Source of the DNA: Methanobrevibacter sp. YE315
GTDB lineage: Archaea > Methanobacteriota > Methanobacteria > Methanobacteriales > Methanobacteriaceae
Length of the DNA: 64,000 bases
Direction: 5' to 3'
NCBI RefSeq assembly: GCF_001548675.1
Contig: NZ_CP010834.1
Span: 1,833,501-1,897,500 of the forward strand
Below are positions 9,562-29,823 of this stretch, in pieces. Position 1 is the first letter of the stretch. Each line of letters opens with the position of its first letter. The notes beneath the pieces were generated by a model. The model did no database searches. It had not been told where the DNA came from and worked only from the letters and a program-made list of their open reading frames with translations. Position numbers and translations under genes: made by a program.

Positions 9562-10353
9562 ATGAATATAATAAAAATTGATGAAAATTACAATCGTATA
9601 TTAGGCCATGAACCAGCAATGAAAAACAGCAATATCATTTTCAATGGACGGAATAATGTGTTAATATGCGAAAAAAATGTTTCATTAAGAAATTCAAACT
9701 TAAAATTCCATGGAAATAACTCATTAATCTATTTAGCTCCCCAACGGTCCGGTTATTTTTTGAATATTTCTTTATTTAATAATTCTGTTTTTTTCATCGA
9801 TGAGGGTGTCTCTATGAATGGTAAACTAAATCTCCTTCTAAGTGAAGAAAAGAACATCATAATCGGTAAAGATTGTTTATTTTCATTTGGAATTTGGGTT
9901 AGGCTTGCAGATCCTCATTTGATTTTTGATATTGAAAATAAAGAAAGGATTAATGTTTCAAAAAGTGTTTACCTGGGAGACCATGTCTGGATTGGCCAGG
10001 ATGCAATGCTATTAAAAGGAACCCAAATTGGTTCTGGAAGTATTGTCGCAGCCAAATCTGTTGTTTCAAATAAAAAGATTTCATCAAATTCCATTTGGGG
10101 AGGAAATCCTGTAAAAGAAATCAAAAAAGGAATATTCTTTGATAAACTTACAGCAAACAATTTTACAAAAAAACATACTGAAAAATATATGAAATCTGAA
10201 GATGAAAAATGGATTTATTCAAATGAAGGAGAGGTCCTTAGTTTTGATGAAATTGATGAAAAATTAGCTTCAATGACTGATATTGATGATAAAATAGAGC
10301 TTATCCAAAGTATTCGAAACAATAAATCCCATAATAGGTTCTATATAGAATAA
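9562..10353 (+). CDS. Hexapeptide-repeat acyltransferase (left-handed beta-helix)
   Basis: A 263-residue protein of the galactoside/maltose O-acetyltransferase type. The C-terminal half of the fold shows VYLGDHVWIGQDAMLLKGTQ followed by IGSGSIVAAKSVVSN and IWGGNPVKEIKKG, the usual acetyl-CoA-binding beta-helix with catalytic His at DHVW. The N-terminal half is a less regular beta-helix (NNVLICEKNVSLRNSNLKFH). A C-terminal acidic helical tail ends in NNKSHNRFYIE. It is a clear paralogue of the protein at 29020-29823 in the surface-polymer locus, sharing all three parts. It sits alone between cfbE and hemC; acylation of a surface polysaccharide is a reasonable guess. Confidence 0.85.
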   Translation: MNIIKIDENYNRILGHEPAMKNSNIIFNGRNNVLICEKNVSLRNSNLKFHGNNSLIYLAPQRSGYFLNISLFNNSVFFIDEGVSMNGKLNLLLSEEKNIIIGKDCLFSFGIWVRLADPHLIFDIENKERINVSKSVYLGDHVWIGQDAMLLKGTQIGSGSIVAAKSVVSNKKISSNSIWGGNPVKEIKKGIFFDKLTANNFTKKHTEKYMKSEDEKWIYSNEGEVLSFDEIDEKLASMTDIDDKIELIQSIRNNKSHNRFYIE

Positions 10354-15603: not shown

Positions 15604-18276
15604 TTAGTAATAATTATCAATTTTCTTAATTTCATCCAATGTACGTTTACAGTTATTTCTGTCAGTATATTCGAAAAAGTCATCAACGCGAGCTTTATAC
15701 AAATCGTCCATTTCACAATCTTTATTGACCAAATCCATTATTTTGCTTTTCAATTCATCGGGAGTAACTGTTATTGGTCCAAAGCCCATAGTATCATATT
15801 TGAAATATGCCTTGTCAAGATCAAAATGAAACTCATCTATATCATAGTGATAATAAATCAAAGGCTTTTTAAGATAAGCAAAATCAAATGCTACTGATGA
15901 AAAATCAGTGATTAACATTGAAGAATGATTAAAGATATCTGCATATGACTTATCAGTGAATTCTACCAAAGGATGCTTTGTAAAGGTATCAATGAATTTT
16001 TTTAAATTTGGATGAGGTTTAAATGCCAATTTATAACCTTTTGAATCCAGGAAATTGATTAAGCTTTCATCATTTAAAAGGCTGTTGAAGTTTTCAAAGA
16101 GTTCGGACTCCATAAATTCGCTTTCGGAAACTGCATTATACTTACGCCTCCAGGTAGGCATGATTACAATTTCTTTTTTATCTTCCAATCTCTCCAAATA
16201 ATCAAATCTTGGGAACCCGCATAGTTTAACAACATCTTCAGAATAACCGTAATTTCCATTGAAAAATGATTCTCGCTCTTTTCTAGAAACAGTTACCAAC
16301 ATTTCTAAATGTTTATCAAACCTATTAAGCCAATGGGAAACATCATGCAAAGTTACACCATGCTGTAAAAATACGGTTTTTGATCTAACAAAACCTGCCA
16401 AATGTGTGAAATTACCCCAAAATGGATAAATAATAAAATTATCTGGATGTGAAGTGATAATCAGCTCCGCATATAATGAATACAATCTGTGTTTTAAAGA
16501 TGCATAAGGAATAACCGGCCCTATCTTTTCAACTTTTTCATATTCCGGCACTGCTTTTCCAAATCCTAGCAATCTTTTAATTTTGCCAAAATCAGATAAG
16601 TAATTATATTCCTCATCTGTTTTTTGAACAACAAAATACTTTTTAACATCCGAATCATCATTATCTATGACATACTTAAATAATTTCAGTCCGTTGTCAT
16701 CTGCACTTCTAGGCAAGTCACCGAAAATCCAAATCCTCTTATTTTTAAAAAAAGGATATGCTAAAAAGTATAATATCCTTAATGGAATTGCGGTTCTCCA
16801 CCCTCTCCATTTATGGTTCCACATTGATTTTAAGGTAGCAAATTCATTTTTTAAAACAGCTCCTGTTGTTTTATTGATTACTTGAATATGGTCTTCACAG
16901 TCTATAGCCAAATAATCTTTTGATAATTTATATCTTGAAATATGTGAAATTCTAGAAGTACGATTAAAACCTATAGTTAAATCTGTTTCATTTGTTTTGA
17001 AAGATATTCTATTTGCAACAGGGATTGTAACTTCAAAACTATGATTATGAGCATAAGTTCTATTAAGAGAAACTGAATCTCTTTGAGGGAATTCAACTTC
17101 AGAAACAGGAATCTCTTCTTTATCATCTAAAACAGCGAAAATATCAGTTTCAGTATGGAAAAATGTTTTGTAGATTCCTGAAATATATATCTCATTTTCA
17201 CTTCTAAACTCAAAGAAGTCTATTCTGATTTGATTTAAGGCGAAATGTTCCAAAATTTCATCACGTAAAGAGTCCCCTATGACAAAATTGGAGAAATTCT
17301 TATTCAGATAATCCCATTTATAATGCTTAACCATCAACATGTGTGTTTTAAGTAAATCAAGACCAAATCTCATATTATAAATAACATCATCATCAACATA
17401 GGATAAAATTTCAATTAATTTATCGAATAGTATATTGAACTCTTCTTCGCTTAACAAATCATCAATAGACTTAATATTGAACATCCAATACATATCATAA
17501 GCAACCAAATGTTGAATGAACTTAGGAACTTCATCATAAAGTTCCAATGAATCCTTAATGATTCTTAAAAAATAGTTATCCATTCTTGAAGTAAAATACG
17601 ACTTTCTGTAAATAGAAGATGAAACAAGAGAAGTTTTAACATTGTTTTTCCTATAGTTATACTTACAACCAGATATAACGCCCAATTTAGGATTTTTTAG
17701 AAGGATTTGATTAATAAATAATGGATCTTCAGAAATTTCTAAAATATCATCAAATTTATGATTTTTAATTTTCGATGCCCTAAAGAAAGATGAAGCACCG
17801 GAAAGCTGAATATAATCCGGATTTTCCAATAAGTCTATAACCTGAGTTTCTTCATATTTATAATTTAAAACATGCCCTCCACTCTTATCACCGAAAAAGT
17901 AGATAGGAATGGATGCAATATCGACATCATCATGCTCTGTTAGAAAATCGTATAATGTTTTAAATGTATTTTTTGAGAGGGTATCATCACTATCTAAAAA
18001 ATTAACGTATTCCCCTTGAACTTTGGATAAACCAATATTCCTAGAACCTGCAGCTCCTTGATTAGTCTCATTATTGATTAAAATTATATTTTGAGGGTAT
18101 TTTTCTTGATAGATTTGCACAACATCACTTGTTGCATCTTGACTTGCATCATTTACAACAATGATTTGGATATTATCTTTAAAATCCAAACTCTGATTTA
18201 TAATTGAATCTAAAGCTTCACCAATTTCATTTTCAGAGTTATATGCTGCCATCACAACAGAAAATTTGAAATCCAA
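15604..18276 (-). CDS. GT2 glycosyltransferase fused to CDP-glycerol glycerophosphotransferase (TagF-like)
   Basis: An 890-residue two-enzyme protein. Residues 1 to about 230 are a GT-A family 2 glycosyltransferase: FSVVMAAYNSENEIGEALDS, IVVNDASQDATSDVV, GAAGSRNIG and the metal-binding NFLDSDDTLS. A helical and beta-rich linker region follows. About residue 520 onward is a CDP-glycerol:poly(glycerophosphate) glycerophosphotransferase domain: FLQHGVTLHDVS (catalytic-type His), LAFKPHPNLKKF and MLITDFSSVAFDFAYLKKPL. In bacteria such domains polymerise teichoic acid from CDP-glycerol or CDP-ribitol. No membrane segment; likely acts at the inner membrane face. The start is a TTG with GGGGG upstream. 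It shares its architecture with the protein at 22195-24906 and is the last gene of the locus. Confidence 0.88.
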   Translation of the reverse strand: MDFKFSVVMAAYNSENEIGEALDSIINQSLDFKDNIQIIVVNDASQDATSDVVQIYQEKYPQNIILINNETNQGAAGSRNIGLSKVQGEYVNFLDSDDTLSKNTFKTLYDFLTEHDDVDIASIPIYFFGDKSGGHVLNYKYEETQVIDLLENPDYIQLSGASSFFRASKIKNHKFDDILEISEDPLFINQILLKNPKLGVISGCKYNYRKNNVKTSLVSSSIYRKSYFTSRMDNYFLRIIKDSLELYDEVPKFIQHLVAYDMYWMFNIKSIDDLLSEEEFNILFDKLIEILSYVDDDVIYNMRFGLDLLKTHMLMVKHYKWDYLNKNFSNFVIGDSLRDEILEHFALNQIRIDFFEFRSENEIYISGIYKTFFHTETDIFAVLDDKEEIPVSEVEFPQRDSVSLNRTYAHNHSFEVTIPVANRISFKTNETDLTIGFNRTSRISHISRYKLSKDYLAIDCEDHIQVINKTTGAVLKNEFATLKSMWNHKWRGWRTAIPLRILYFLAYPFFKNKRIWIFGDLPRSADDNGLKLFKYVIDNDDSDVKKYFVVQKTDEEYNYLSDFGKIKRLLGFGKAVPEYEKVEKIGPVIPYASLKHRLYSLYAELIITSHPDNFIIYPFWGNFTHLAGFVRSKTVFLQHGVTLHDVSHWLNRFDKHLEMLVTVSRKERESFFNGNYGYSEDVVKLCGFPRFDYLERLEDKKEIVIMPTWRRKYNAVSESEFMESELFENFNSLLNDESLINFLDSKGYKLAFKPHPNLKKFIDTFTKHPLVEFTDKSYADIFNHSSMLITDFSSVAFDFAYLKKPLIYYHYDIDEFHFDLDKAYFKYDTMGFGPITVTPDELKSKIMDLVNKDCEMDDLYKARVDDFFEYTDRNNCKRTLDEIKKIDNYY

Positions 18277-18352
18277 ATTAACATAACCCCCTAAATTGAG
18301 AACCCATATAAAAATTAAAAGAAGTCATAAAAAATTTATAAAAAATAAAATA

Positions 18353-18379
18353 ATAACTTTTAAAAAAATTAAAAGTTAT
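18353..18379 (-). terminator. Terminator hairpin abutting a stop codon
   Basis: Arms ATAACTTTTAA (18353-18363) and TTAAAAGTTAT (18369-18379) with a 5-nt loop; on the minus strand it follows directly on the TGA stop (18381-18379) and leads into a T-rich stretch. Confidence 0.55.
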
Positions 18380-18822
18380 CATAAATCATTTATTATTGAT
18401 TTAACAACATCATCATTATACTTTCCTCTTATGAAGATATGATATGGTTTATTATCTTTATCAAAGAAGAAATGAGTAATCTTTGTTTTATTAGTCTTTG
18501 GATCTTTTAGTATTATTTTTGTTACTTTAGCATTACCCACCTTTTCCTCTTTTATACTTAATTCATTTTTTTTATATCTTTGAGTATACTCCTTGATAGA
18601 TTTGTCAGTATCATTATTAGTTTGATAAATAGTAATTTTAGAGTCACCATTTACTAATTTAACACCATGTTCAGATTGTTTTAATATAGCATAACCGTTA
18701 GGCACTTTGACCTGGCTAGATCCCACAGTAAAATAATTAGATGTGGTAAAAGTATAGGCAGCTACACCCGCTACCGCTATCAAACATAATAAAATTATTA
18801 AATAAATATATTTTTTTGACAT
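18379..18822 (-). CDS. Hypothetical membrane-anchored extracellular protein
   Basis: About 147 residues: a signal anchor (YIYLIILLCLIAVAGVAAYT) followed by an outside domain beginning VKVPNGYAILKQSEHGVKLV and ending HIFIRGKYNDDVVKSIINDL, with a lysine-rich middle. Such small anchored beta domains are common in Methanobrevibacter surface loci; I do not recognise the family. The ATG at 18822 has GGTG 7 nt upstream and is preferred to the in-frame TTG at 18834. Its promoter has a TATA box (18872-18880) and a 16-bp palindrome over the region where the transcript should start; the palindrome core is identical to one at the winged-helix gene at 1704. A hairpin terminator follows, so this is probably a single-gene unit inside the polymer locus. 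Confidence 0.75.
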   Translation of the reverse strand: MSKKYIYLIILLCLIAVAGVAAYTFTTSNYFTVGSSQVKVPNGYAILKQSEHGVKLVNGDSKITIYQTNNDTDKSIKEYTQRYKKNELSIKEEKVGNAKVTKIILKDPKTNKTKITHFFFDKDNKPYHIFIRGKYNDDVVKSIINDL

Positions 18823-18858
18823 AAAATGCACCAAATATTATTTTATATTTAATCTATT

Positions 18859-18874
18859 AAATAGATATCTATTT
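18859..18874. promoter_or_regulatory. 16-bp palindromic operator candidate
   Basis: AAATAGATATCTATTT is a perfect palindrome that overlaps the downstream edge of the TATA box on the minus strand. Its central 12 bp are identical to 1664-1675. A bound dimer would block transcription initiation of the gene at 18822. Confidence 0.5.
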
Positions 18875-18880
18875 TATAAA
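18872..18880 (-). promoter_or_regulatory. TATA box of the 18822 gene
   Basis: Minus strand TTTATAAAA, predicting a transcript start near 18850 and a leader of about 28 nt with a GGTG site. Assigned by eye. Confidence 0.45.
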
Positions 18881-18901
18881 CCTTCATCAAAAATTTATCA
18901 A

Positions 18902-19963
18902 TTAATCAATAAGTTCACAAATTTTATCAGCAATTCTATACATTGACCAATCAATATAATGAGATTCATCTACTGATACGCAGTCATAATCTTCTTCATC
19001 GAATAATTCAGTCTGATATAACAACTTAGTATTTTCACCGCGTTCAACTGCTTTTTCATAAACTTCACAAACATGCTTATCCAAAGCAAAATAAAGTTTT
19101 TTCTTATTAAATGATGTTGAAGTCATGAGCACAATTCTTTTATCCGGATGATGACTACGAATTCTTTTATAAAATGGTTCATACATTTCTTTAAATTCTT
19201 TCAAACTACTTGCGTTTCTGGTATAATCAATTACAATACTATGACAATTAATTTTCCCAATTGTGTCTGCAACATTTTCATTTCCTCGACAAGCTGAAGA
19301 GATAGACAAATTAATTATATCCCTATTTAACCTTTTACTTACAACATTTGGAAATGAATTCGAACTTCTGGATGCTGCTGCACCTTGAGTTACAGAATTT
19401 CCATAAAATACTACGGGTAATCTTTTTTCATCAGGATAATCAAAAGGTTCTATAGAAGAATTTTCATCTATTCCTAAGAAAAATTCTTCGATAGTATTAT
19501 AATTTGGTAAAAAGACACAAACTTGACCGCTTTTTGGAGCTCTAATTCTTTCTACAAAAATATTTTCCCCATCGTTAGGACCAAACACTCCAACATGATT
19601 ATACTTCCCATCATCACTTACTTCATAAATATCAAAACCCATTGCATTCCAATTAACTAACTTTTTATATCCCCATTTCCTACGCAACTGAATTTTAAAA
19701 GTTAACCAATTAGAATTTGTCTTAAAACGTAACCTAGTCCCTGAAGCACTATTATGGAAATCGGCCATCTCTTTAATGGCTGAATTACCAAATTTTTTAA
19801 TTTCCATATGTGTTTTAATTGGAAATTTTGAAAAATCTGTTCTTGATGAAGCAAAATTAATAGTTCCATAAATATATTCCGGGTGCTCGAAGATATCAAT
19901 ATAATCAATAGAATCCTCATTAATTTTTTCTAATTTATCATGAATTGATGTTAAATATTCCAT
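18902..19963 (-). CDS. SGNH/GDSL-type hydrolase (probable carbohydrate esterase)
   Basis: A 353-residue protein. Residues 1 to about 175 form a beta-rich N-terminal domain as in SGNH carbohydrate esterases; the catalytic domain follows. Block I is VFYGNSVTQG with nucleophile Ser190 (GNS in place of GDS), the Asn block may be YTRNAS, and block V is DESHY with Asp332 and His335, so the catalytic set is complete. The lack of a signal peptide argues for a cytoplasmic substrate, perhaps removal or transfer of acetyl groups on polymer precursors. It begins 4 bp after a second, divergent SGNH-like gene and belongs to the dehydrogenase operon. Confidence 0.82.
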   Translation of the reverse strand: MEYLTSIHDKLEKINEDSIDYIDIFEHPEYIYGTINFASSRTDFSKFPIKTHMEIKKFGNSAIKEMADFHNSASGTRLRFKTNSNWLTFKIQLRRKWGYKKLVNWNAMGFDIYEVSDDGKYNHVGVFGPNDGENIFVERIRAPKSGQVCVFLPNYNTIEEFFLGIDENSSIEPFDYPDEKRLPVVFYGNSVTQGAAASRSSNSFPNVVSKRLNRDIINLSISSACRGNENVADTIGKINCHSIVIDYTRNASSLKEFKEMYEPFYKRIRSHHPDKRIVLMTSTSFNKKKLYFALDKHVCEVYEKAVERGENTKLLYQTELFDEEDYDCVSVDESHYIDWSMYRIADKICELID

Positions 19964-19967
19964 AAAA

Positions 19968-20837
19968 TTACAACCATTTGCTTAATTTTTTATAAATAAA
20001 CACATTTGCTGTGTCATTAATAAATCTATTACTGTAAACACACATGTCAGAGTATTTATCACTATAGATGCAGGAAATATCTTCAATTATGATTTCCCCT
20101 TCATATTCTTTTAATAGTTTTCTAATCAAATCTTTTCTTGATTGCCTATTTGGGGGTAATGCATACCAACAAATTAATTTATTAACCTTTGTCTTGAAGA
20201 AATTTACAACATCAACCAAATATTTTTCAACATCTTCTTTTTTTTGAGAATAAGAATCAACTTCTAAAATGCAAATATCATGCTTTCGAAACTTTTTATC
20301 TGCTTTAAAATAATTTGAATGATATGCTTTAAGAAAATCACTTTTATTAAATGAATAATTATTAACTAGAGAATTTGTCTTTCTACCAATAATATTTGAA
20401 AATAACATGCTAGATGTTGTACAACCAATACCAAAACTATGAATTCCTCCAGCAATCATTATTTTATCTATATTATTTTCTTCAATGCTCACTATTGAAG
20501 AACCCTCTGGAACATCCAAATACAAATCAGATAAAGTTCCCAAAATTGGTGCATAAATCAACAAATCATAATACACATTGTCACCAACAAGATACTTCAT
20601 GTTAAGTACTGCTGGAGAACTTCGAGAATAAGCATTTACGGGCATCCAAGATTTATCTTCAACCCTTTTATACATGACTAAAAGGCCCTCTCTAGCAGTA
20701 ACCCCCACATGTGGGAAAGAACCCTTAACCACATGTTCCAATCCATAAAATATTTTCAGTGTAGGTGCATTTGTTCTCAATTTATATACATACGGACTCT
20801 TATCATTAACCGACTTGTAAAGAATATCTACTCTCAT
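19968..20837 (-). CDS. Divergent SGNH-like protein
   Basis: A 289-residue protein that looks like a reduced, divergent version of its downstream neighbour: a beta-rich N-terminal half (AREGLLVMYKRVEDKSWMPV), then a block-I-like KIMIAGGIHSFGIGC with Ser134, and KHDICILEVDSYS at the position of the second conserved strand. The usual Asp-x-x-His near the C-terminus is not visible (the end reads SNRFINDTANVFIYKKLSKW), so it may be inactive, use other residues, or act as a partner of the neighbour. No signal peptide. Gaps of 21 bp and 4 bp tie it into the same operon as the dehydrogenase and the SGNH hydrolase. Confidence 0.65.
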   Translation of the reverse strand: MRVDILYKSVNDKSPYVYKLRTNAPTLKIFYGLEHVVKGSFPHVGVTAREGLLVMYKRVEDKSWMPVNAYSRSSPAVLNMKYLVGDNVYYDLLIYAPILGTLSDLYLDVPEGSSIVSIEENNIDKIMIAGGIHSFGIGCTTSSMLFSNIIGRKTNSLVNNYSFNKSDFLKAYHSNYFKADKKFRKHDICILEVDSYSQKKEDVEKYLVDVVNFFKTKVNKLICWYALPPNRQSRKDLIRKLLKEYEGEIIIEDISCIYSDKYSDMCVYSNRFINDTANVFIYKKLSKWL

Positions 20838-20858
20838 TTCTCCACCCCATTTTAGAAT

Positions 20859-22148
20859 CTATAAAGACCAATATACAATATTATCTTTATTATCAAATTC
20901 TTCACGAACAGTCTCTTTTAAATCAAATAATATGATATTATTTTTAGATATATTTTCCAAATCATTTACAGCCAAATTTTGATATTCTGAATGTGCTACA
21001 CCAATTACAATCGCGTCAAACTTATTATTAAACTCATCGGATAAAGTTAGGTTATGTATTCTCTCTAACTCTTCAGGAATCGCATTAGGATCATTCAATT
21101 CAATATTCGCACCACTCTCTTCTAATTTTTTGATAATTTCAATTATCTTACTATTACGAATATCATTACAATTCTCCTTAAATGTGACACCACATACTAA
21201 TATGTCGGCTTCGTTAATGTCGATATTATTTTCCGCCAAGGTATTGACAATATTGTCATGAACATAATCAATCATGGATTCGTTGATTTTTCTACTGGTT
21301 TTCATTAAATCAGTATCACAATTCAATTTATCAGATTGATATATCAAATAATAAGGGTCAATACCAATGCAATGGCCTCCAACAAGACCTGGTTGATATT
21401 TAACGAAATTCCATTTAGTTCCTGCCGCTTCAATTACATCATTAATATTAATTCCCATTGAATTATATATTTTAGCAAGCTCATTTACCAATGCAATATT
21501 GACATCACGTTGGATATTTTCAGTTATTTTAGCGGCTTCGGCAATTTTAATAGATTTAGCCCTAAATATTCCATTATTTAAAACAGAATCATAAACATTA
21601 GCAATGATATCTAAAGATTCCTCGTCCATTCCAGATACGATTTTAGTGATATCTTCTATTTTCTGATTATTTTTACCAGGGTTTACTCTTTCAGGTGAAT
21701 ATCCGACTTTAAAGTCTTCACCACATTTAAATCCGGAACCCTCTTCAAGGATTGGAATGCAAACATCTTCTGTTACACCAGGATAAACAGTTGATTCATA
21801 TACAACAATTGAATTTTTAGGCATATTCCTAGCAACAGTTTCGGTAGATGATCTGATGAAACTTAAATCAGGTTCATTATCTTCCTTAATTGGTGTTGGA
21901 ACTGTAACTATGAAAAAATTGGCATTAGACAACTCTTTTTCATCACTAGTGAAGTGGATATCAAAATCGTTTAAATCATCACCTTCAATCATGTCAATTC
22001 CATTTTTATAACTTTCGATTTTAAATTCGCTAATATCAAAACCGATTACATCGTATTTTGAAGATAATAATTTAGCTAGTGGCAAACCAACATATCCTAG
22101 TCCCACAACCGCAATTTTTTTATTCTTATTGATTAAATCGCTGAACAT
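20859..22148 (-). CDS. UDP-N-acetylhexosamine 6-dehydrogenase (TviB/VipA-like)
   Basis: About 429 residues, the full length of the UDP-glucose/GDP-mannose dehydrogenase family. The N-terminal NAD domain has KIAVVGLGYVGLPLAKLL; the centre has VYESTVYPGVTEDVCIP and GYSPERVNPG; the catalytic Cys is in VGGHCIGIDPYYL, the form used by UDP-HexNAc enzymes rather than UDP-glucose dehydrogenase; the C-terminal domain has VTFKENCNDIRNSK, as in TviB-type enzymes. It should oxidise UDP-GlcNAc or UDP-GalNAc at C6 to a uronic acid, supplying an acidic sugar for the polymer. ATG at 22148 with GGAG upstream; the longer TTG frame would swallow this site. Confidence 0.88.
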   Translation of the reverse strand: MFSDLINKNKKIAVVGLGYVGLPLAKLLSSKYDVIGFDISEFKIESYKNGIDMIEGDDLNDFDIHFTSDEKELSNANFFIVTVPTPIKEDNEPDLSFIRSSTETVARNMPKNSIVVYESTVYPGVTEDVCIPILEEGSGFKCGEDFKVGYSPERVNPGKNNQKIEDITKIVSGMDEESLDIIANVYDSVLNNGIFRAKSIKIAEAAKITENIQRDVNIALVNELAKIYNSMGININDVIEAAGTKWNFVKYQPGLVGGHCIGIDPYYLIYQSDKLNCDTDLMKTSRKINESMIDYVHDNIVNTLAENNIDINEADILVCGVTFKENCNDIRNSKIIEIIKKLEESGANIELNDPNAIPEELERIHNLTLSDEFNNKFDAIVIGVAHSEYQNLAVNDLENISKNNIILFDLKETVREEFDNKDNIVYWSL

Positions 22149-22194
22149 TTTATAACTCCGCTTCAAATAATTTAATATCCTATTTTTAACAAAC

Positions 22195-24906
22195 TTAATG
22201 ACTATCTATCCAATCGTATACTCTTTTACAATTATTTCTGTCAATATTATCAAAAAAGTTATTGATCCTATCTTCATAAATTTGTTCAATTTTACAATCA
22301 GATTCAATATAATATTTAATTTTTGATTTTAAATCTAATAAATTTTTAGTAACTTCACCGAATCCCATAGTATTATAATCAAAATAACCACCTTTAAATG
22401 GATGATCATCATTCGGTTGATAATATATAATTGGCTTTTTCAAGTATCCGAAATCAAAGAAAACAGATGAAAAGTCAGTAATCATAATAGCTGATTCCCT
22501 AAATAGTTTTTGATAATCGCCCTCGTTAGATACCCTAATTTTATCATGAATATCGAATAAATCAATGAATCGTTCATTTGTATTTTTTATTGTTCTTTCT
22601 AAATTAGGATGAGGCTTCAATACAATTTCATATCCCTGTTTTTCAACAAAATCAATCAAATCATCATCATTCAATAACTCATTTAAAGAATTAAAGTAAG
22701 GAGATTTTAAAAATATATCTTTACTTCCCACCAAATAATTTCTCCATGTTGGAATGATGAGAATTTGTTTTTTAACATTATCATTTCTCAAATTATCAAA
22801 TCTTGGAAGACCTAAAACTTGAATCCTATCCTTATCATAACCATAACCTGCATCAAAGAATGAATCACGTTCCAATGATGAAGATGTTAATAACAAGGAT
22901 ATATTTTTATCATATTTTTTTAACCAAGTAGACATATTTCCTTGAGTTACACCATGCCTAATGTAATATTTTGGAATTTCACTAGAATTAGAATAAACTA
23001 AAGTTTTCCCTTCAACAACAAATGGGTTTACAACACCATCATCGGGATTAGATGAAATAACCTTATCTGCAAATAAGAATAGTAACTTATGTTTTAATGA
23101 AGCAAACTTAACAACATTCTTTAACTCTTTATTCACACGAGAATAATCACTGCAATCTTCAGATATTATATAATATTTATTTATATTATCATTTTGATTA
23201 AGAGCGTATCTAAACAAATGTTCCGCATTATCATCCGCTTTATCAACACGATCCATGAATAAATAAGTCTTTTTATTCCTATTTTTATATTTGAAAATTG
23301 GATATAGCAGTAATGCTAGGCCCCTTATCCATAAAATATTCATAAAATTTGGAATATTGGCTTCTTTTATTGTTTTCAAAGTATTCTTTTCATGACTAAT
23401 CATTTTAGAATATTTATAATTCTCAACATAGAACTTATTATCTTCAAAATAGACAATTTTTGAATCTTTTACGAAATAATTACAGTATTTTGAGATAGGT
23501 GAATGTCTTCTAAATCCAATGCTTAAAAATTTAGTCACCACATTTCCTTTTTTAAAATCAAGAGTATTACCATTTTTATAATACATGACTTTAATTCCAA
23601 TTTCATATTCTATATCCTCATCTAATGGAACAGAAAGATCGAAATTATACTTATATTGAATAGTTTCAGATAAAAATAAAAGATTTGATCTAGCAGTATA
23701 GTCAACTTTCTTTGCACCATAAATAAACGTATTTCCATTTTTATCCTTTCTAACAGCTTTAATAGAAATATGATCTGAGTCAAATAATGAATTTAAGGCA
23801 CCAGATATATTAAGATGATTGTCCTTTAATTCAACAATATCAATCCAAAATTGATGAGCACCCAATCTATCTAATTGTCTATTTTTACTTCGAATGAACA
23901 CATCGTGCCTTTTTAAATCAAAATCACAATGTATATCATCATTATATTTAGAAATTAAGTAATTACGAAGAGCAGGACCCCTAATCAATTTGGAGTTTAA
24001 CGCATCGATAGACAAATAACTTAAAACTTTTTTGAAATACTGCATAAATACGTCAGCTTGATATTTATAATCAAAGTTAGGTACTTCAGGAGTTACCATC
24101 CATTGTATATTATAAGCTAAAGTATATTTAATAAATTCTGGAACTTCACCTTCTTTATCCAAACAATATTGAATTAAATCCATAAAATGGTACTTTAATC
24201 TATCAGTATAAAAACCTACCATATCAATGTATGAATCAACTGAAGAAGAATTATCCATACGTTTTCTATAGTAATAAGTAGGATTTTCCAAAACACCATA
24301 TGCTTTCTTTTCTAATAAAATCCTATTAATAAAATTAGTATCTTCAGAACCTACAAGATTGGTTTTAAATCTCTGATTATTAATCGCAGAATTTTTAATA
24401 AATGAACTTGAAACGGATAACTGCGGATTCCCAGGTTCTTTTACTAAATCAATGACACGATCACATTTAAATCTGAAATTTAAAGGGTGAGCCTTAGTGC
24501 TTCTTTCAAACTCAATGATTTTAACTGTAACCACATCAATAGATTCTTCATGGAGTTTGAAAAAATTATTTACTTCTTCCAATGTGGTTTCAGATAATTT
24601 GTCGTCACTATCGAAAAAATTTACATATTTACCTTTAACATAATCTAAACCATTATTACGAGCACTAGCCTGACCTTGATTCTCTTGAGATAAAACCACA
24701 ATATTATTGGGGAATTTTTTCTGATACTCTAAAGCAATATCCAAAGAATCATCTTCGCTCCCATCATTGACAAGTACTAACTGAGTATTTTCTTTAAAAT
24801 CTAAAGATTGATAAATAATAGAGTCAATTGCTTCTTTTAAATATTCCTGCGTATTGTAAATCGCCATCACAATTGAAAAAATAAAAGAATTATCATTATC
24901 GTCCAT
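22195..24906 (-). CDS. Second GT2 glycosyltransferase - TagF-like glycerophosphotransferase fusion
   Basis: A 903-residue protein with the same order as the one at 15604-18276. GT2 domain: FSIVMAIYNTQEYLKEAIDS, LVLVNDGSEDDSLDIAL, QASARNNGLDYVKG and NFFDSDDKL. Middle region of about 300 residues with a beta-rich part. C-terminal glycerophosphotransferase domain: YYIRHGVTQGNMSTW, IVLKPHPNLERT and MITDFSSVFFDFGYLKKPI. The two copies differ throughout, so they probably add different sugars or act at different polymer positions rather than being recent duplicates. A TATA box at 24930-24937 lies 26 nt before the ATG and no ribosome-binding site is seen, which suggests a leaderless message that leads the operon down to 18902. 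Confidence 0.88.
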   Translation of the reverse strand: MDDNDNSFIFSIVMAIYNTQEYLKEAIDSIIYQSLDFKENTQLVLVNDGSEDDSLDIALEYQKKFPNNIVVLSQENQGQASARNNGLDYVKGKYVNFFDSDDKLSETTLEEVNNFFKLHEESIDVVTVKIIEFERSTKAHPLNFRFKCDRVIDLVKEPGNPQLSVSSSFIKNSAINNQRFKTNLVGSEDTNFINRILLEKKAYGVLENPTYYYRKRMDNSSSVDSYIDMVGFYTDRLKYHFMDLIQYCLDKEGEVPEFIKYTLAYNIQWMVTPEVPNFDYKYQADVFMQYFKKVLSYLSIDALNSKLIRGPALRNYLISKYNDDIHCDFDLKRHDVFIRSKNRQLDRLGAHQFWIDIVELKDNHLNISGALNSLFDSDHISIKAVRKDKNGNTFIYGAKKVDYTARSNLLFLSETIQYKYNFDLSVPLDEDIEYEIGIKVMYYKNGNTLDFKKGNVVTKFLSIGFRRHSPISKYCNYFVKDSKIVYFEDNKFYVENYKYSKMISHEKNTLKTIKEANIPNFMNILWIRGLALLLYPIFKYKNRNKKTYLFMDRVDKADDNAEHLFRYALNQNDNINKYYIISEDCSDYSRVNKELKNVVKFASLKHKLLFLFADKVISSNPDDGVVNPFVVEGKTLVYSNSSEIPKYYIRHGVTQGNMSTWLKKYDKNISLLLTSSSLERDSFFDAGYGYDKDRIQVLGLPRFDNLRNDNVKKQILIIPTWRNYLVGSKDIFLKSPYFNSLNELLNDDDLIDFVEKQGYEIVLKPHPNLERTIKNTNERFIDLFDIHDKIRVSNEGDYQKLFRESAIMITDFSSVFFDFGYLKKPIIYYQPNDDHPFKGGYFDYNTMGFGEVTKNLLDLKSKIKYYIESDCKIEQIYEDRINNFFDNIDRNNCKRVYDWIDSH

Positions 24907-24929
24907 ATAAAGATATTTAATGAATATAA

Positions 24930-24937
24930 TATATAAA
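24930..24937 (-). promoter_or_regulatory. TATA box of the polymer-synthesis operon
   Basis: Minus strand TTTATATA, centred about 27 nt from the ATG at 24906. The spacing fits a leaderless transcript. Confidence 0.45.
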
Positions 24938-25098
24938 AATTTGTATATCGAGCAATTTTAATAAAAAAAAATAAATTTAATAAAAAATTAAATTATTAAC
25001 ATTTATTTTAAAAAATATTGAAAAAAAATAAACAAAGATGGAAAAGATATAATTAGAATTAATTAAAGACGAATATTTTTAACATTCACAAAATAAAA

Positions 25099-25137
25099 AA
25101 ATATTCAAAAATAAAAAATTATCTAAATTGAATATTT
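25099..25137 (-). terminator. Terminator hairpin spanning the ABC-ATPase stop codon
   Basis: Perfect 10-bp arms AAATATTCAA (25099-25108) and TTGAATATTT (25128-25137); the 19-nt loop carries the TAA stop (25119-25121). On the minus strand the hairpin runs into a T-rich stretch. Confidence 0.6.
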
Positions 25138-26744
25138 CTTAATTGTTCTTTGCTTGCTTTTTCGGAATCTTTAAGATAATGGTTACATACTTCATTTGCA
25201 TCGCCAATTTCTCTAATCTCCCCCTTGTCAATCCAAATTGCTCTGCTACATAATGACCTAATTTGTGGAATAGAGTGAGAAACAAGTACAACTGTAGTTT
25301 TTCCATCCATTAAAGATCTGATTTTATCACTACTTTTCCTTTTAAAATTCACATCCCCAACAGATAAGATTTCATCAATGATTAAAATATCAGGATTCAC
25401 CATAGTAGCAATAGAAAACCCAAGTTTTGCAATCATACCAGATGAATAGTTTCTTATTGGAAGATCAATAAATTCTCCTAATTCAGAAAATTCAATTATT
25501 TCTGCTTCTTTTTCTTGCAAGAATTTTTTGCTATAACCCAAAACAGCACCATTTAAATAAATATTTTTTCGTCCGGAATAATTCCTATCAAAACCTGCAC
25601 CTAAAGATAGTAATGGTGAAATATTACCTCTAGTTACAACTTCACCGTTATCAGGAGTATAAATTCCAGTAATAACCCTTAATAAAGTAGATTTACCCGC
25701 ACCATTATATCCGATAATACCAATTTTTTCACCTTGATATATCTTAAAAGAAATATCATTTAAGGCTTTAAATTTGAATTTTTTAGATTTATTTCTTTTA
25801 ATTGTACGAATAAAACTTTCCTTTAATGTATCAATATTATCTGTAGCAACATCAAAACTTAAATCAACATGACTCACTTCAATGGAAACATCAGAACTAT
25901 AACCCGGAACAATACCTGAAACTATGGAATCAACATCATTTTCACTATCTTTACTTTCATCTAACGAATTAACATTATCATCATCAATATTTTGTAAAAC
26001 TTCTTTAGATTTTGGAGCATCATCTTTAGAATGTAAAAGATTGCCAAGTTTCTTTTTTAACCCTCTTTTAGGAGGAACCGGGTCATCACTCACAATATCC
26101 TTGGAACTAACATCCTTAGCAACTTCATCTTCAGAAACAACATCCTCAGAAACAACTTTCTTAGGAACAGCCTTCTTAGGAACATCCCCATCAGAAACAA
26201 CTTTCTTAGGAACAGATTTCTTAGGAACATCCCCATCAGAAACAACTTTCTTAGGAACAGATTTCTTAGGAACATCCCCATCAGAAACAACTTTCTTAGG
26301 AACAGATTTCTTAGGAACATCCCCATCAGAAACAACATCATTATTAGGTTTTCCATTAGATATTTCGGGACCTGACTTCCTAATTTTCCTAGAATCAGAA
26401 ACTTTACTCTTTTGTTCTTCTTTTTGTTTTTCCCTATCTAAAACATGTTGAGGAACGATTACATCAACATCATCATTAATTGGCTTATTCAATTTTGGAG
26501 CATTCTGTTTTTTAGTTTCAATTTTCTTATCTTCAACTTCAAGAGGCGGTTTTTGAATTTCTTCATTACGCTTATTTTCTTCCATTTTTTCAAGACGCAC
26601 TAATACCGCTTCAGCTTCTTTATCATTGATGTTATATTTATCCATTAATTTTTTTTTAATTCTTTGTCTTTGACTGTCTTGATTATTAATAGAATCTTGA
26701 TTAATTGATTTCCTAAAAGTTATATTTTTATCATCTTTATTCAT
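25119..26744 (-). CDS. Polysaccharide/teichoic-acid-type ABC exporter ATPase with repeat-rich N-terminal extension
   Basis: 541 residues. The ATPase domain (about 285-520) is of the TagH/RfbB/Wzt type: Walker A GYNGAGKSTLL at 345-355, signature YSSGMIAKLGFS, Walker B ILIIDEILSVGD and the H-loop VVLVSHS. Before it lies a roughly 285-residue hydrophilic, highly charged extension, not usual in TagH (which, if extended, is extended at the C-terminus). Residues about 137-200 are four tandem copies of a 15-residue unit built on VVSDGDVPKKSVPKK, and the flanks are Lys/Asp/Glu-rich. The stretch is predicted disordered and probably cytoplasmic. It follows the permease by 10 bp, so the two form the exporter. 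Confidence 0.9.
   Translation of the reverse strand: MNKDDKNITFRKSINQDSINNQDSQRQRIKKKLMDKYNINDKEAEAVLVRLEKMEENKRNEEIQKPPLEVEDKKIETKKQNAPKLNKPINDDVDVIVPQHVLDREKQKEEQKSKVSDSRKIRKSGPEISNGKPNNDVVSDGDVPKKSVPKKVVSDGDVPKKSVPKKVVSDGDVPKKSVPKKVVSDGDVPKKAVPKKVVSEDVVSEDEVAKDVSSKDIVSDDPVPPKRGLKKKLGNLLHSKDDAPKSKEVLQNIDDDNVNSLDESKDSENDVDSIVSGIVPGYSSDVSIEVSHVDLSFDVATDNIDTLKESFIRTIKRNKSKKFKFKALNDISFKIYQGEKIGIIGYNGAGKSTLLRVITGIYTPDNGEVVTRGNISPLLSLGAGFDRNYSGRKNIYLNGAVLGYSKKFLQEKEAEIIEFSELGEFIDLPIRNYSSGMIAKLGFSIATMVNPDILIIDEILSVGDVNFKRKSSDKIRSLMDGKTTVVLVSHSIPQIRSLCSRAIWIDKGEIREIGDANEVCNHYLKDSEKASKEQLRNIQFR
26150..26336 (-). repeat. 45-bp tandem repeats in the ABC-ATPase gene
   Basis: Units begin at 26182, 26227, 26272 and 26317 (period exactly 45 bp), nearly identical at the DNA level, with a less conserved unit before 26182. 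They encode the 15-residue repeats of the N-terminal extension. Such perfect in-frame units can expand or contract by slippage or recombination. Confidence 0.9.
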
Positions 26745-26754
26745 TTAAAACCCT

Positions 26755-27525
26755 CTAAAATTTCATTGCAACTTTGTTTTTATGTGTTTTAAAGACAATA
26801 ATTCCCAATACTAAAATTATTGAGGAAAGCAATAATGAATTAAATATGTTTAATAAGTCAGGAATAGTTCCCCAAACAGCAAAATGCCTAAATTGATCTA
26901 TAACCCAAAAGAGCGGATTAAGAATCATATATTGATGATATGGTTCTCCAATAATTTCCATTGGGTAAAACAATGCAGATGCATACATTAAAATCATGGT
27001 TACTACACTCCATAAATGTTTAACATCTGTATAATAAACATATAAAATAGATAATATAAATCCAATACCAATTGTCATCATGATTAATGAAATGACTGGT
27101 ATGATTGATAAAGGAATTGTATTGAAGTGGAAAGGTGCTTTAGTAACAATCATAACAGCAATAAGAATAATCAATGAGATAATGAAATTTAAAAATTCTG
27201 AAATAACTCCCCCCAAAACAAAAACGTTCATTGGCGCTGCAGTTCTTTCTAAAATATTTTTATTACCTCTAATAGCATTCATAGATACACCAACACCAGA
27301 AGTAAAGAAATCAAATAAACATTTACCAGATAAGTAGTATACAGGAAAGTTCTCAATTTTACGGCTAAAAACTGTAGAGAAAATTATAGTTAATATAGTC
27401 ATTACCAATAATGGCTTTAATACACTCCACATAATTCCTAAAACAGAATCTTTATATTTTGATGCGAAATTCTTTTTAACTATTTCTTCAAATAGAAAAA
27501 AATTAACTTTATTACTTAAACTCAT
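26755..27525 (-). CDS. ABC-2 type polysaccharide exporter permease (TagG-like)
   Basis: A 256-residue membrane protein of the ABC-2 transporter family, six membrane segments. Family marks: an N-terminal amphipathic stretch FASKYKDSVLGIMWSVLKPL, then TILTIIFSTVFSRKI, ERTAAPMNVFVLGGVISEFL and the C-terminal half YTDVKHLWSVVTMILMYASA with LNPLFWVIDQFRHF. It forms the membrane channel with the adjacent ATPase and would export the lipid-linked polymer made by the TagF-like proteins. The ATG has GGGCT upstream, a modest site. It is the promoter-proximal gene of the exporter operon and diverges from the hydrolase gene at 27928. Confidence 0.92.
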   Translation of the reverse strand: MSLSNKVNFFLFEEIVKKNFASKYKDSVLGIMWSVLKPLLVMTILTIIFSTVFSRKIENFPVYYLSGKCLFDFFTSGVGVSMNAIRGNKNILERTAAPMNVFVLGGVISEFLNFIISLIILIAVMIVTKAPFHFNTIPLSIIPVISLIMMTIGIGFILSILYVYYTDVKHLWSVVTMILMYASALFYPMEIIGEPYHQYMILNPLFWVIDQFRHFAVWGTIPDLLNIFNSLLLSSIILVLGIIVFKTHKNKVAMKF

Positions 27526-27927
27526 AAAAGCCCACTATTAAATATTTAATAAATAAAAATTTTGTATATCAATAATTATCTTAAATTAAATATTTAAATA
27601 TTTGTCTAATTTTATACTAATTCCTTCAAAAACACACAAATATACTTATTACATTACTAAAGTTTTAAATTGAAAAATCTATTTACAAATATTTAAATCA
27701 AAAAAAATTCATGAAAAAATAATTTAAAATTTGTGAAAAAGAATGAAAACAAAAATAAACAAACAAATTTTATAATATTTAAAAATAGTTTCCGAATTGA
27801 TTATATAGAATAATCGACATATATATTCTTAAAATATTAAATTTATTAATGCTAAAAGGGATTTTCACATGAAAACACCATTTAATTATTAACTAAATAG
27901 TGAATTAAATTAATACCGTGATAAACA
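27526..27927. other. Divergent promoter region of the polymer locus
   Basis: About 400 bp, extremely AT-rich and without a gene. It must carry the promoters for the exporter operon (minus) and the hydrolase (plus). A small inverted repeat GATTAT (27799-27804) / ATAATC (27810-27815) is the only dyad noticed. No riboswitch or RNA gene is recognised. Confidence 0.4.
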
Positions 27928-28842
27928 ATGAAAAATTTAGTCAAAAATGTTATTGAAGTAGATTTTGATGAAATTGAAACATATGATTTCCCATTAGATG
28001 AACCTTTTGGATTAGACATTAATTACAAAGGCATTAGATACTGCCTTGTTATGAGGTTATCTTCAACTAATAAAAATTTAATCTGTTGTGGACCTGGTGC
28101 ACATGGAAGAAATGTGCAGACATCAGATGGAACATATAAAAAACCACCATTTATCCAGAGATGGTCTTGGTACAAATATTTTGAAGAATCATTTATCGCT
28201 TATGCTGATCCAATCTTCTTTTATGATGAACGGATAACCTTAGGATGGTTAGTAGGTGATAAAAACCAATGGTATCTTGAAACTGTTTCGGAAATTATTA
28301 AAAAAATATGTAAAAATCAGGGAATTTATCATAGCAATATTTTATTTTACAGCAGTTCAGGAGGAGGATTTACATCAACTGGGCTTGGAACCCTTATAAA
28401 AGGATCAAAGGTGCTAGTGAATAATCCTCAAATGAATATTTTAAATTATCATGAATTCCACATTAATCATCTATTTAGAATATTATACAAGGAGTTTCCA
28501 GGTTTGACAAAATCTCAAATCATAAAAAAAATAGGTTATAGAATAGATATGATTAAATTATTCAAAAAAGAAAAATACATTCCGCCAATTACCTATTATT
28601 TGAATGTTGAATCTGATGATGATCTTTACAATCATTGCATACCATTTATCAATGATATTAAAAAATTACCTTATTTCAAAGATAATCTTATAATTCATGC
28701 GTACAGAGAAGTTAAAAGCTCACCACATGGACCTATTTCAACAGCTGAATCTGTAAGAATAATAAAAGAGTATGCAAAGCAATATTTAAATAATAATGAA
28801 GAATCAGAAGACAATCAACTCAAAAATAATTTATTAAAATAA
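27928..28842 (+). CDS. Putative alpha/beta-hydrolase-like protein of the polymer locus
   Basis: A 304-residue soluble protein not assigned to a named family. The central LFYSSSGGGFTSTGL (residues 139-153) resembles the nucleophile elbow of serine hydrolases; an acidic patch VESDDDLYNH (about 227-236) and HGP in KSSPHGPISTAES (His267) fall in the order expected for Asp and His of a triad. The N-terminal half includes GPGAHGRNVQ and a Trp-rich stretch RWSWYKYF. This could be an esterase or acyltransferase acting on the polymer; the triad is inferred only. ATG with GTGAT upstream. The lysine/asparagine-rich tail ends in LKNNLLK. Confidence 0.6.
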   Translation: MKNLVKNVIEVDFDEIETYDFPLDEPFGLDINYKGIRYCLVMRLSSTNKNLICCGPGAHGRNVQTSDGTYKKPPFIQRWSWYKYFEESFIAYADPIFFYDERITLGWLVGDKNQWYLETVSEIIKKICKNQGIYHSNILFYSSSGGGFTSTGLGTLIKGSKVLVNNPQMNILNYHEFHINHLFRILYKEFPGLTKSQIIKKIGYRIDMIKLFKKEKYIPPITYYLNVESDDDLYNHCIPFINDIKKLPYFKDNLIIHAYREVKSSPHGPISTAESVRIIKEYAKQYLNNNEESEDNQLKNNLLK

Positions 28843-29019
28843 ATTAAAAAAAATACAAATTTTTCTTATCTTAATTTTTATAACCATATTTACAGTAAGA
28901 AGTTATAAACAATTATTATCAATAGTTTAATAAATATAAAAAACTAAATAAATATTGAAATAAAGTTATTTGGTATGAAATTAATAAAAATTAATTAAAT
29001 TAAGAAGGGATATGATTAT

Positions 29020-29823
29020 ATGGAATTTGTTAGAAGTCAGGAAGATATTGTAAATTTAAAAGATAATAAAATATTCGGTGAACCCAATTTAACTAACACT
29101 ACCATCAAATTTGGTGGTGTGAATAATATTTTAGTATGTGAAGGAGATATTAATCTTACAAATGCAAATATTTCATTCAGTGGAAGTAATTCTATCATTT
29201 ATTTATCATATTCTCAACTTCATTATCGTATAACCATAGTCATAAGAAACAACTCAACATTATTTATAGGCAAAAACAATAAATTTGGTGTTTCTGAATT
29301 ATATGTTGAAGAACACCAAAATCTCATTATTGGCGATGATTGTCTTATTGGAAGCGCAGTGACTATTAAAACTAGTGAATTATACCCTGAATATGATTTA
29401 GACAGTAAAAATAGGGTTAATTTTTCAAAAAGCGTCCTTATTGGAGATCATGTCTGGATAGGTAATCAAGTATTCATTTCTAAAGGTACACAAATTGGTT
29501 CTGGAGCGATAATTGGTTCACATAGTTATATACCTCCAGCTTCAATAATCCATTCAAATACTCATGTACAAGGAAATCCGATTAGAACAATTAGAAATAA
29601 TGTATTCTTTACAAAAGACTTTTTAGGATCTTATACTGAGGAAGATACTCTTAATTATTCAACATATAAAAGCAATATATTCAAATATGAATACGTGCAG
29701 AATGAAACTTTATCATTTAATAAAATTGATGAAATATTAAATAATTTAACTGTTATTGAAAAATTAGATTTCATTAACAAATTATTTATAAAAAATAAAC
29801 GTAAAAACAGATTTTTCTATTAA
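29020..29823 (+). CDS. Hexapeptide-repeat acyltransferase, paralogue of the 9562 gene
   Basis: 267 residues with a left-handed beta-helix: SVLIGDHVWIGNQVFISKGT, IGSGAIIGSHSYIPPASI and VQGNPIRTIRNN are the catalytic-His, hexapeptide and substrate-side motifs of the O-acetyltransferase group. Like its paralogue it has an irregular N-terminal helix (NNILVCEGDINLTNANISFS) and a C-terminal helical tail ending NKRKNRFFY. Presence in the polymer locus suggests that it acetylates sugars of the exported polymer, opposite in action to the SGNH esterase. The ATG is preceded by GGGATATGAT, a moderate site. It is 177 bp downstream of the hydrolase and may have its own promoter. Confidence 0.85.
   Translation: MEFVRSQEDIVNLKDNKIFGEPNLTNTTIKFGGVNNILVCEGDINLTNANISFSGSNSIIYLSYSQLHYRITIVIRNNSTLFIGKNNKFGVSELYVEEHQNLIIGDDCLIGSAVTIKTSELYPEYDLDSKNRVNFSKSVLIGDHVWIGNQVFISKGTQIGSGAIIGSHSYIPPASIIHSNTHVQGNPIRTIRNNVFFTKDFLGSYTEEDTLNYSTYKSNIFKYEYVQNETLSFNKIDEILNNLTVIEKLDFINKLFIKNKRKNRFFY

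Follow-up and report, generated by a model that had tools for sequence, protein, structure and literature searches.

The gene block at 15604–29823 of the window, by which we mean the whole 64,000-nucleotide stretch analysed, raises the question of whether a methanogen makes a teichoic-acid-like polymer and, if so, from which phosphate donor. The host genome, from the Methanobacteriaceae, is complete and carries the pseudomurein gene PmurB. The initial annotation proposed that the block makes, decorates and exports a glycerol- or polyol-phosphate-containing glycopolymer with an acidic sugar. The genes present and their intact TagF histidines support an archaeal locus that would make and export a phosphate-containing glycopolymer. 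As to the donor, we read 15604–27525, with a probability of roughly 0.6, as encoding the synthesis of an anionic teichoic-acid-class glycan with phosphodiester linkages, built by two GgaB-like GT-A/TagF polymerases from a sugar-phosphate donor.

Organization of the locus

According to the ORF list, eight co-directional genes are clustered on the minus strand at 15604–27525, and two divergent genes lie beyond them at 27928–29823 (Table 1); all genes listed for the block are intact ORFs. The eight genes probably constitute an operon, in which the permease gene is probably the first. A sigma-70 promoter scan, using a model unsuited to archaea, gave a result at chance level. The GC content was 28.5% in the probable operon and 26% in the divergent genes, against 33.4% in the remaining window.

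Table 1. Genes of the block and one paralogue elsewhere in the window, with the basis of each assignment.
Feature	Position	Strand	Basis
ABC-2 type exporter permease (TagG/KpsM-like)	26755..27525	-	PF01061 3.2e-16; KpsM 56 bits, below cut-off
Exporter ATPase (TagH/Wzt-like) with ~290-aa low-complexity N-terminal extension	25119..26744	-	TagH model 214 bits
GT2(GT-A)-TagF bifunctional polymerase, GgaB-like, copy 2	22195..24906	-	PF00535 + PF04464
UDP-HexNAc-type 6-dehydrogenase (acidic sugar nucleotide)	20859..22166	-	TIGR03026 388.8 bits; PDB 4r16 1e-57
Catalytically degenerate GxDLY-SGNH paralogue (pseudo-esterase), partner of the SGNH esterase	19968..20837	-	family alignment, motif columns, fold match
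GxDLY-SGNH esterase/acyltransferase, GNSVTQ Ser + DESH His	18902..19963	-	PF14606 1.7e-26, PF14607 6.8e-14
Small single-TM protein of a multicopy Methanobacteriaceae family	18379..18834	-	family search, hydropathy
GT2(GT-A)-TagF bifunctional polymerase, GgaB-like, copy 1	15604..18276	-	PF00535 + PF04464
Putative alpha/beta-hydrolase-like protein, divergent	27928..28842	+	weak XcbB/CpsF similarity
Left-handed beta-helix (hexapeptide) O-acyltransferase	29020..29823	+	PF00132 3.2e-11
Paralogous hexapeptide acyltransferase outside the block	9562..10353	+	homologues flank the SGNH pair in L111, L113

The two GT2-TagF polymerases

Both fusions named in the initial annotation were recovered by Pfam as GT2 plus Glyphos_transf (PF04464) proteins of 890 and 903 aa (E 2.6e-42 and 5.3e-41; 145.6 and 141.2 bits for PF04464 against a 22.1-bit cut-off). 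In copy 2, the DxD motif occupies residues 99–101 and the TagF histidines are H651 and H766; copy 1 likewise keeps the DxD and both histidines. The DxD reads DSD in both copies and is kept in 40/40 bacterial fusions, while the two catalytic histidines are invariant in all 101 GT2-TagF fusions examined. H766 aligns to the Staphylococcus epidermidis TagF residue changed in structure 3l7m, and the HG histidine is marked by the structure pair 3l7i/3l7j. Among the matches listed in a phage search, all were partial, at the glycosyltransferase end, and none covered 80% of the query.

The motifs around the HG histidine are QHGVT and RHGVT, that is, of HG[VI] type; the HGTP motif of the CDP-polyol-using TagF/TarF type, common to TarF, S. 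epidermidis TagF and Cps3D, is absent from both window copies. An HG[VI]-like motif was present in 97 of the 101 fusions, with the other four unclassified, in a sample that is biased because its loci were mostly fetched by a GT2-TagF query. HGTP sequences group together in the domain tree, as a single starred set of 20 rows from which the fusions are separate.

The closest parallel considered was the tag/tar-gga locus of the Bacillus subtilis group, whose GgaA/GgaB system makes the minor wall teichoic acid, poly(GlcGalNAc 1-P) (PMC11841062). The 900-aa protein at the GgaB position of Bacillus inaquosorum is collinear with copy 2 over its full length (1–900) at 35% identity, and in both organisms a GT2-TagF polymerase of about 900 aa stands beside TagG/TagH-type exporter genes; the Bacillus tar locus runs TarJ-TarI ... 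TagD-TarF-GgaA-GgaB-TagG-TagH by position. The window differs in having two GgaB-like copies without a separate GgaA (no stand-alone GT2 gene of ~445 aa was found in 15604–29823), in adding the dehydrogenase and the SGNH pair, and in its archaeal envelope. The Cps1B-type capsule polymerases of Gram-negative group 2 capsules likewise combine an N-terminal GT-A domain with DxD, a TagF-like domain with two catalytic histidines and ABC export, a likeness to our archaeal proteins that rests on the published description (PMC5974469). The Cps3D/TarF-type CDP-glycerol enzymes share the PF04464 superfamily, whereas the window proteins carry HG[VI] and branch elsewhere in the tree.

TagF-like domains transfer either glycerol-phosphate or hexose-phosphate (PMC5974469), and the order of domains is informative: a GT-A/TagF architecture predicts a poly(oligosaccharide phosphate), and TagF/GT-B a poly(glycosylpolyol phosphate) (PMC5974469; PMC8262930). 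Since the GT-A/TagF architecture, the HG[VI] motif and the domain tree all group the polymerases of the window with GgaB of Bacillus, a sugar-phosphate polymer appears likelier than the polyol-phosphate one initially proposed, which is not the best reading of these enzymes. In this reading, the GT2 domain would contribute a beta-linked sugar and the TagF domain a residue joined through phosphate, for which a hexose- or HexNAc-phosphate taken from a UDP-sugar is the likeliest choice. The product would be a poly(oligosaccharide phosphate), as it is with GgaB of B. subtilis.

Putative acidic sugar and O-acylation genes

The dehydrogenase, initially annotated as acting on a UDP-HexNAc, scored above the TIGR03026 cut-off, and its closest PDB chains are the UDP-ManNAc dehydrogenases 4r16 and Cap5O (2.6e-53), with UDP-Glc dehydrogenases ranking behind them; it would supply the acidic sugar. 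Table 1 also upholds the calls of an SGNH esterase and a hexapeptide acyltransferase. The esterase combines GxDLY and Lipase_GDSL_3 domains with the catalytic Ser, Asp and His all present.

The neighbouring protein, called divergent SGNH-like from its letters, has no Pfam match when searched alone, and the call was borne out by its family. The GxDLY domain was found in 16/18 family members, hhalign matches the family to that of the esterase (95.6%, E 1.2e-8), and the protein matches PDB 4lhs both by sequence (1.7e-7) and as a model of moderate quality (pLDDT 67; E 1.6e-12, TM 0.62 to this SGNH structure). The catalytic Ser column holds S in only 3/18 members and the His column F or Y in 18/18; judged from these columns, the protein is a catalytically degenerate paralogue of the esterase. 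The SGNH-like protein always stands beside the esterase: in 21 of 22 entries the pair is directly adjacent and in order, with gaps of −26 to +4 nt, and the remaining entry shares its SGNH gene with a neighbouring one. A genome search found the SGNH-like protein in 10/120 family genomes; a scan of genome contigs with the 289-aa protein yielded no relative. By hydropathy, both SGNH proteins lack a signal peptide and TM segments. A cytosolic esterase/acyltransferase, its degenerate partner and the hexapeptide transferases may thus together set O-acylation of the polymer. Homologues of the hexapeptide transferase at 29020..29823 occur near GT2-TagF genes at five other loci.

Two further genes are less easily placed. 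For the putative hydrolase at 27928–28842, the ORF is intact and L060 has a homologue upstream of an exporter operon; the functional label is weakly supported, with 18 bits (E 0.0014) to XcbB/CpsF, far below the cut-off, and an unusable structure model (pLDDT 39). PDB matches to TAL repeat proteins were spurious and were set aside because no single stretch passed. The small TM protein was rejected as an operon-specific part, as its family is multicopy in Methanobacteriaceae; its similarity to the positional counterpart in L024 is marginal (E 0.001 over 34 residues).

Export and attachment

The TagG/TagH-type exporter of the initial annotation holds at the level of domains (ABC2_membrane and ABC_tran), and the label denotes the best match, with scores below curated cut-offs: the nearest NCBIfam for the permease is KpsM (cut-off 300), and the TagH model covers residues 285–537 of the ATPase (cut-off 320). 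The N-terminal extension of the ATPase contains a 45-bp tandem repeat in 4.2 copies. The arrangement of exporter plus GT2-TagF is repeated elsewhere in this genome (L024) and at six loci of relatives. Export of the completed, lipid-linked polymer would fall to this ABC exporter of the TagGH/KpsMT type.

How the polymer would be held at the surface is a separate question from its donor. Profile searches of this genome gave no match to the LCP wall ligase (PF03816) or to the linkage-unit enzyme TagA/TarA (PF03808), in contrast to the GgaA/GgaB system and with B. subtilis controls positive; across the phylum, LCP was above cut-off in 8/132 genomes, though TagF genes occur in 116. Together with a permease nearest to KpsM, a capsule exporter, and with the capsule reported for Methanobrevibacter ruminantium in PMC2812497, these data give just short of an even chance that the product, with either donor, is a loosely bound capsule or a surface glycan with a lipid anchor rather than a wall-linked polymer. 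Archaea may, however, employ another ligase, and the phosphate-rich wall preparations of M. ruminantium described in the same paper would fit a wall-linked polymer in that species.

Alternative donors and a second candidate locus

The search for CDP-polyol synthesis and a lipid-carrier initiating transferase that the initial annotation called for found both encoded outside the window. Two TarI copies and GpsA were above cut-off in the profile search (TarI NF001183 371 bits, cut-off 166), and TarI and the TarJ-like protein are 58% and 49% identical to the B. inaquosorum pair. A TagD domain fused to Gfo/Idh is 56% identical to Bacillus TagD, with TIGR01518 at 116 bits, below its cut-off of 165; a lipid-carrier glucose phosphotransferase was above cut-off in L021. 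Because the TagF histidines are kept and CDP-polyol synthesis is encoded, the grounds named initially against such a locus do not hold.

The window polymerases might then draw on CDP-glycerol or CDP-ribitol supplied by these distant genes to give a poly(glycosylpolyol phosphate) teichoic acid. TagD directly adjoins GT2-TagF in L079 and L096, the latter a Blautia locus with no other TagF in the stretch, and in three Methanosphaera loci the SGNH pair has a weak TarI relative next to it. We nevertheless regard this donor as rather unlikely, given the grouping with GgaB. In this genome, hundreds of kilobases separate the CDP-polyol genes from the window, and all bacterial GT2-TagF loci with CDP-polyol genes except L096 also hold an HGTP or TarB/L-type TagF, which could be the CDP-polyol user.

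A better candidate source of a glycerol-phosphate polymer, as far as gene content can tell, is the separate locus L022, in which GpsA and a nucleotidyltransferase accompany an HGTP-type TagF-GT4 protein. L022 matches the Cps3D structure 8qoy at 5.9e-34, and the module recurs across Methanobacteriaceae, including M. ruminantium M1.

Distribution and origin

On the fusion tree, archaeal sequences make up a single starred clade distinct from the bacterial sequences; the one exception is probably mis-binned. Therefore, the polymerases are not recent bacterial imports, and the tree gives no support to such an import of the whole locus. That the locus is decayed or newly acquired and non-functional, as its low GC content and the patchy SGNH pair might suggest, is very improbable given its intact ORFs, its retained catalytic residues and this separate clustering.

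The kind of locus is already known, because Leahy et al. described teichoic-acid gene homologues from M. ruminantium in 2010 (PMC2812497). Strain M1 has six PF04464 matches of the same family, but the genome search did not find the SGNH-like protein in it; the available part of that report names no polymer, donor or locus structure. The initial remark that archaeal walls are not generally described as carrying teichoic acids thus stands in part, qualified by these homologues and by the phosphate-rich walls.

Implications for methanogen envelopes

The envelope, whose glycopolymers are chemically undefined, is the surface by which gut and rumen methanogens meet their hosts, viruses and vaccine-raised antibodies. 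The present analysis turns the 2010 remark on homologues into two separable predictions with named genes: a sugar-phosphate polymer from the window and a glycerol-phosphate polymer from the GpsA module.

More tentatively, Methanobacteriaceae may make two teichoic-acid-class polymers, the sugar-phosphate one from window-like loci and the other from bacterial-type sn-glycerol-3-phosphate supplied by GpsA, both fixed by a non-LCP ligase, with the SGNH pair as an enzyme/pseudoenzyme unit controlling O-acylation. In the literature consulted, GpsA in Methanobacteria is discussed solely in relation to membrane lipids (PMC5059525). Under this scheme, it would serve a surface polymer and not a membrane lipid, a role that offers a possible reason for the presence of GpsA in Methanobacteria.

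Genomic Setting and Distribution

The window spans G000:C1:1833501-1897500 of a single-contig genome of 2.27 Mb that is 99.96% complete. We regard the host as an archaeon with pseudomurein, since PmurB scored 332.7 bits, above the curated cut-off. All ORFs of the locus were intact (Table), and the gaps of 4 to 212 bases between the eight minus-strand genes, as calculated from ORF coordinates, would fit a single operon. The GC content was 28.5% in the eight-gene block and 26% in the two divergent genes versus 33.4% in the remaining window; the lower GC of the block alone does not show recent import. The nearest polymerases among named loci were from Methanobacteriaceae, chiefly Methanobrevibacter and Methanosphaera, and PF04464 was found in 74 of the 83 genomes from the family and in 116 of the 132 from the phylum. 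A 45-bp tandem repeat (4.2 copies, 97% match) codes for a repetitive segment in the exporter ATPase, within its N-terminal extension. A small single-TM protein within the block belongs to a family that is multicopy in Methanobacteriaceae (matches in 50/120 genomes, some within proteins of about 600 aa).

Table. Features of the locus and of related loci (window positions unless prefixed).
Feature	Position	Strand or taxon
Eight-gene block	15604-27525	minus
Two further genes	27928-29823	plus
Single-TM protein	18379-18834	
45-bp tandem repeat	26146-26336	
GpsA/nucleotidyltransferase/HGTP TagF module	L022:10637-17261 = G000:C1 about 1117636-1124260	own genome
Same module, other genomes	L147-L149, L153-L155, L159, L161	Methanobacteriaceae
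GT2-TagF paralogue, MSE for DxD	L024:9841-12387	own genome
GT2-TagF paralogue, LPI for DxD	L023:2679-5291	own genome
TagD-type-Gfo/Idh/MocA fusion	L026:5653-6981	own genome
582-aa ORF	L126:1468-3216	

Polymerases and Likely Donor

The initial annotation had read the region as a teichoic-acid-like phosphopolymer locus, and sequence comparison did not refute this reading, because the catalytic TagF histidines are kept and CDP-polyol genes are encoded. Both histidines, equated with those of S. epidermidis TagF by alignments to 3l7i/3l7j/3l7m and of the own-genome TagF domains, were invariant in 101 aligned GT2-TagF fusions, including both window copies. For CDP-ribitol, the genome encodes two TarI-type cytidylyltransferases (371 and 220 bits; cut-off 166), the former directly followed by a TarJ-like reductase, and this pair shares 58% and 49% identity with TarI and TarJ from the tar locus of Bacillus inaquosorum. 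L021 encodes an initiating transferase for the lipid carrier (TIGR03023: 479 bits, cut-off 411). For CDP-glycerol, the genome has GpsA, above its cut-off, and a TagD domain fused to a Gfo/Idh dehydrogenase (TIGR01518, 116 bits, below the cut-off of 165). Two LicD genes and the second TarI lie near this TagD-type fusion.

Among the TagF-like domains of the fetched loci, from which motif classes were read, an HG[VI]-like motif occurred in 97 of 101 GT2-TagF fusions, the remainder being unassigned by pattern, and the HGTP motif occurred in the B. inaquosorum TarF-position protein, S. epidermidis TagF, and Cps3D. In a FastTree tree of 154 TagF domains, built with several long-branch warnings, the HGTP rows and one other row formed a starred set of 20, and the window copies fell within starred sets of HG[VI] rows. 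The B. inaquosorum locus runs TarJ, TarI, TagD, TarF-like protein, a 445-aa GT2 (GgaA position), a 900-aa GT2-TagF (GgaB position), a 275-aa protein (TagG position), and TagH. The window polymerases have the GT-A/TagF architecture; for capsule enzymes, PMC5974469 predicts by architecture that GT-A/TagF yields poly(oligosaccharide phosphate) and TagF/GT-B yields poly(glycosylpolyol phosphate). On the basis of motif class, tree, GgaB position, and architecture, the window polymerases are more likely to transfer sugar-phosphate, from a donor that we infer. Polyol-phosphate transfer, to which a TagD gene adjoining a lone GT2-TagF (L096) and a weak TarI relative next to the SGNH pair in three Methanosphaera-type stretches would point, is less likely.

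Two own-genome GT2-TagF paralogues have lost the GT-A DxD and kept both TagF histidines; fusions lacking this DxD numbered 12 of 56 archaeal ones from other genomes versus 0 of 40 bacterial ones.

When TagF domains from 97 fusions were placed on a tree, the archaeal rows formed one starred set of 61, so exchange of fusions between archaea and bacteria appears old or rare within this sample. The set includes one bacterial-labelled contig (L038, uncultured Bacillales), whose gene order and GT2-TagF sequence are almost the same as those of an archaeal contig (L037); L038 is probably a mis-binned MAG contig.

The Paired SGNH Proteins

The 289-aa protein was found in 10 of 120 family genomes, namely two of the window's genus, its own included, and eight of one other genus. 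It lay directly adjacent to the GxDLY-SGNH esterase, in unchanged order and at a distance of -26 to +4 nt, in 21 of 22 entries; in the last, L126, it lies next to the esterase gene that belongs to L129. The 22 entries would represent 20 distinct places, since L039 and L101 seem to duplicate L119 and L116 (matching gene lengths and identities). A 582-aa ORF in L126, which directly follows an SGNH pair, combines a degenerate SGNH-like domain with a different N-terminal region.

Profile and fold comparison identified the 289-aa family as a paralogue of the esterase family. The catalytic Ser is kept in 16 of 18 esterases; in the 289-aa family, Ser occupies this column in 3 of 18, and the His column holds F or Y in all. 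As a hydropathy scan detected no signal peptide or TM segment in either protein, both probably act in the cytoplasm, before the putative polymer would be exported to the surface. A fold match to SsfX3, an acyltransferase, would fit either hydrolysis or transfer; the O-acylation and its direction are presumed.

Possible Attachment and Glycerol-Phosphate Supply

Neither LCP nor TagA had a match in the window's genome, and across the phylum 8 of 132 genomes carry an LCP match above its cut-off; any attachment of the polymer in this genome would not follow the known bacterial route.

Elsewhere in the genome, a bacterial-type GpsA, a nucleotidyltransferase, and two TagF-GT4 proteins of the HGTP class are consecutive (L022), and the L022 TagF domain matched Cps3D (8qoy) at 5.9e-34. 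In 20 stretches around strong PF04464 matches from other genomes, a sampling that addresses association of TagF with GpsA and not the reverse, GpsA occurred in nine and the nucleotidyltransferase in 11; both stood with an HGTP TagF no more than two genes apart in eight. One of these eight is M. ruminantium M1, from a species in which teichoic-acid homologues and wall phosphate were already known, the walls being described as phosphate-rich in PMC2812497. Archaeal GpsA is known from few groups, including Methanobacteria, and has been considered in the context of membrane lipids (PMC5059525). The conserved module suggests that, in Methanobacteriaceae, sn-glycerol-3-phosphate may be destined for a surface polymer.
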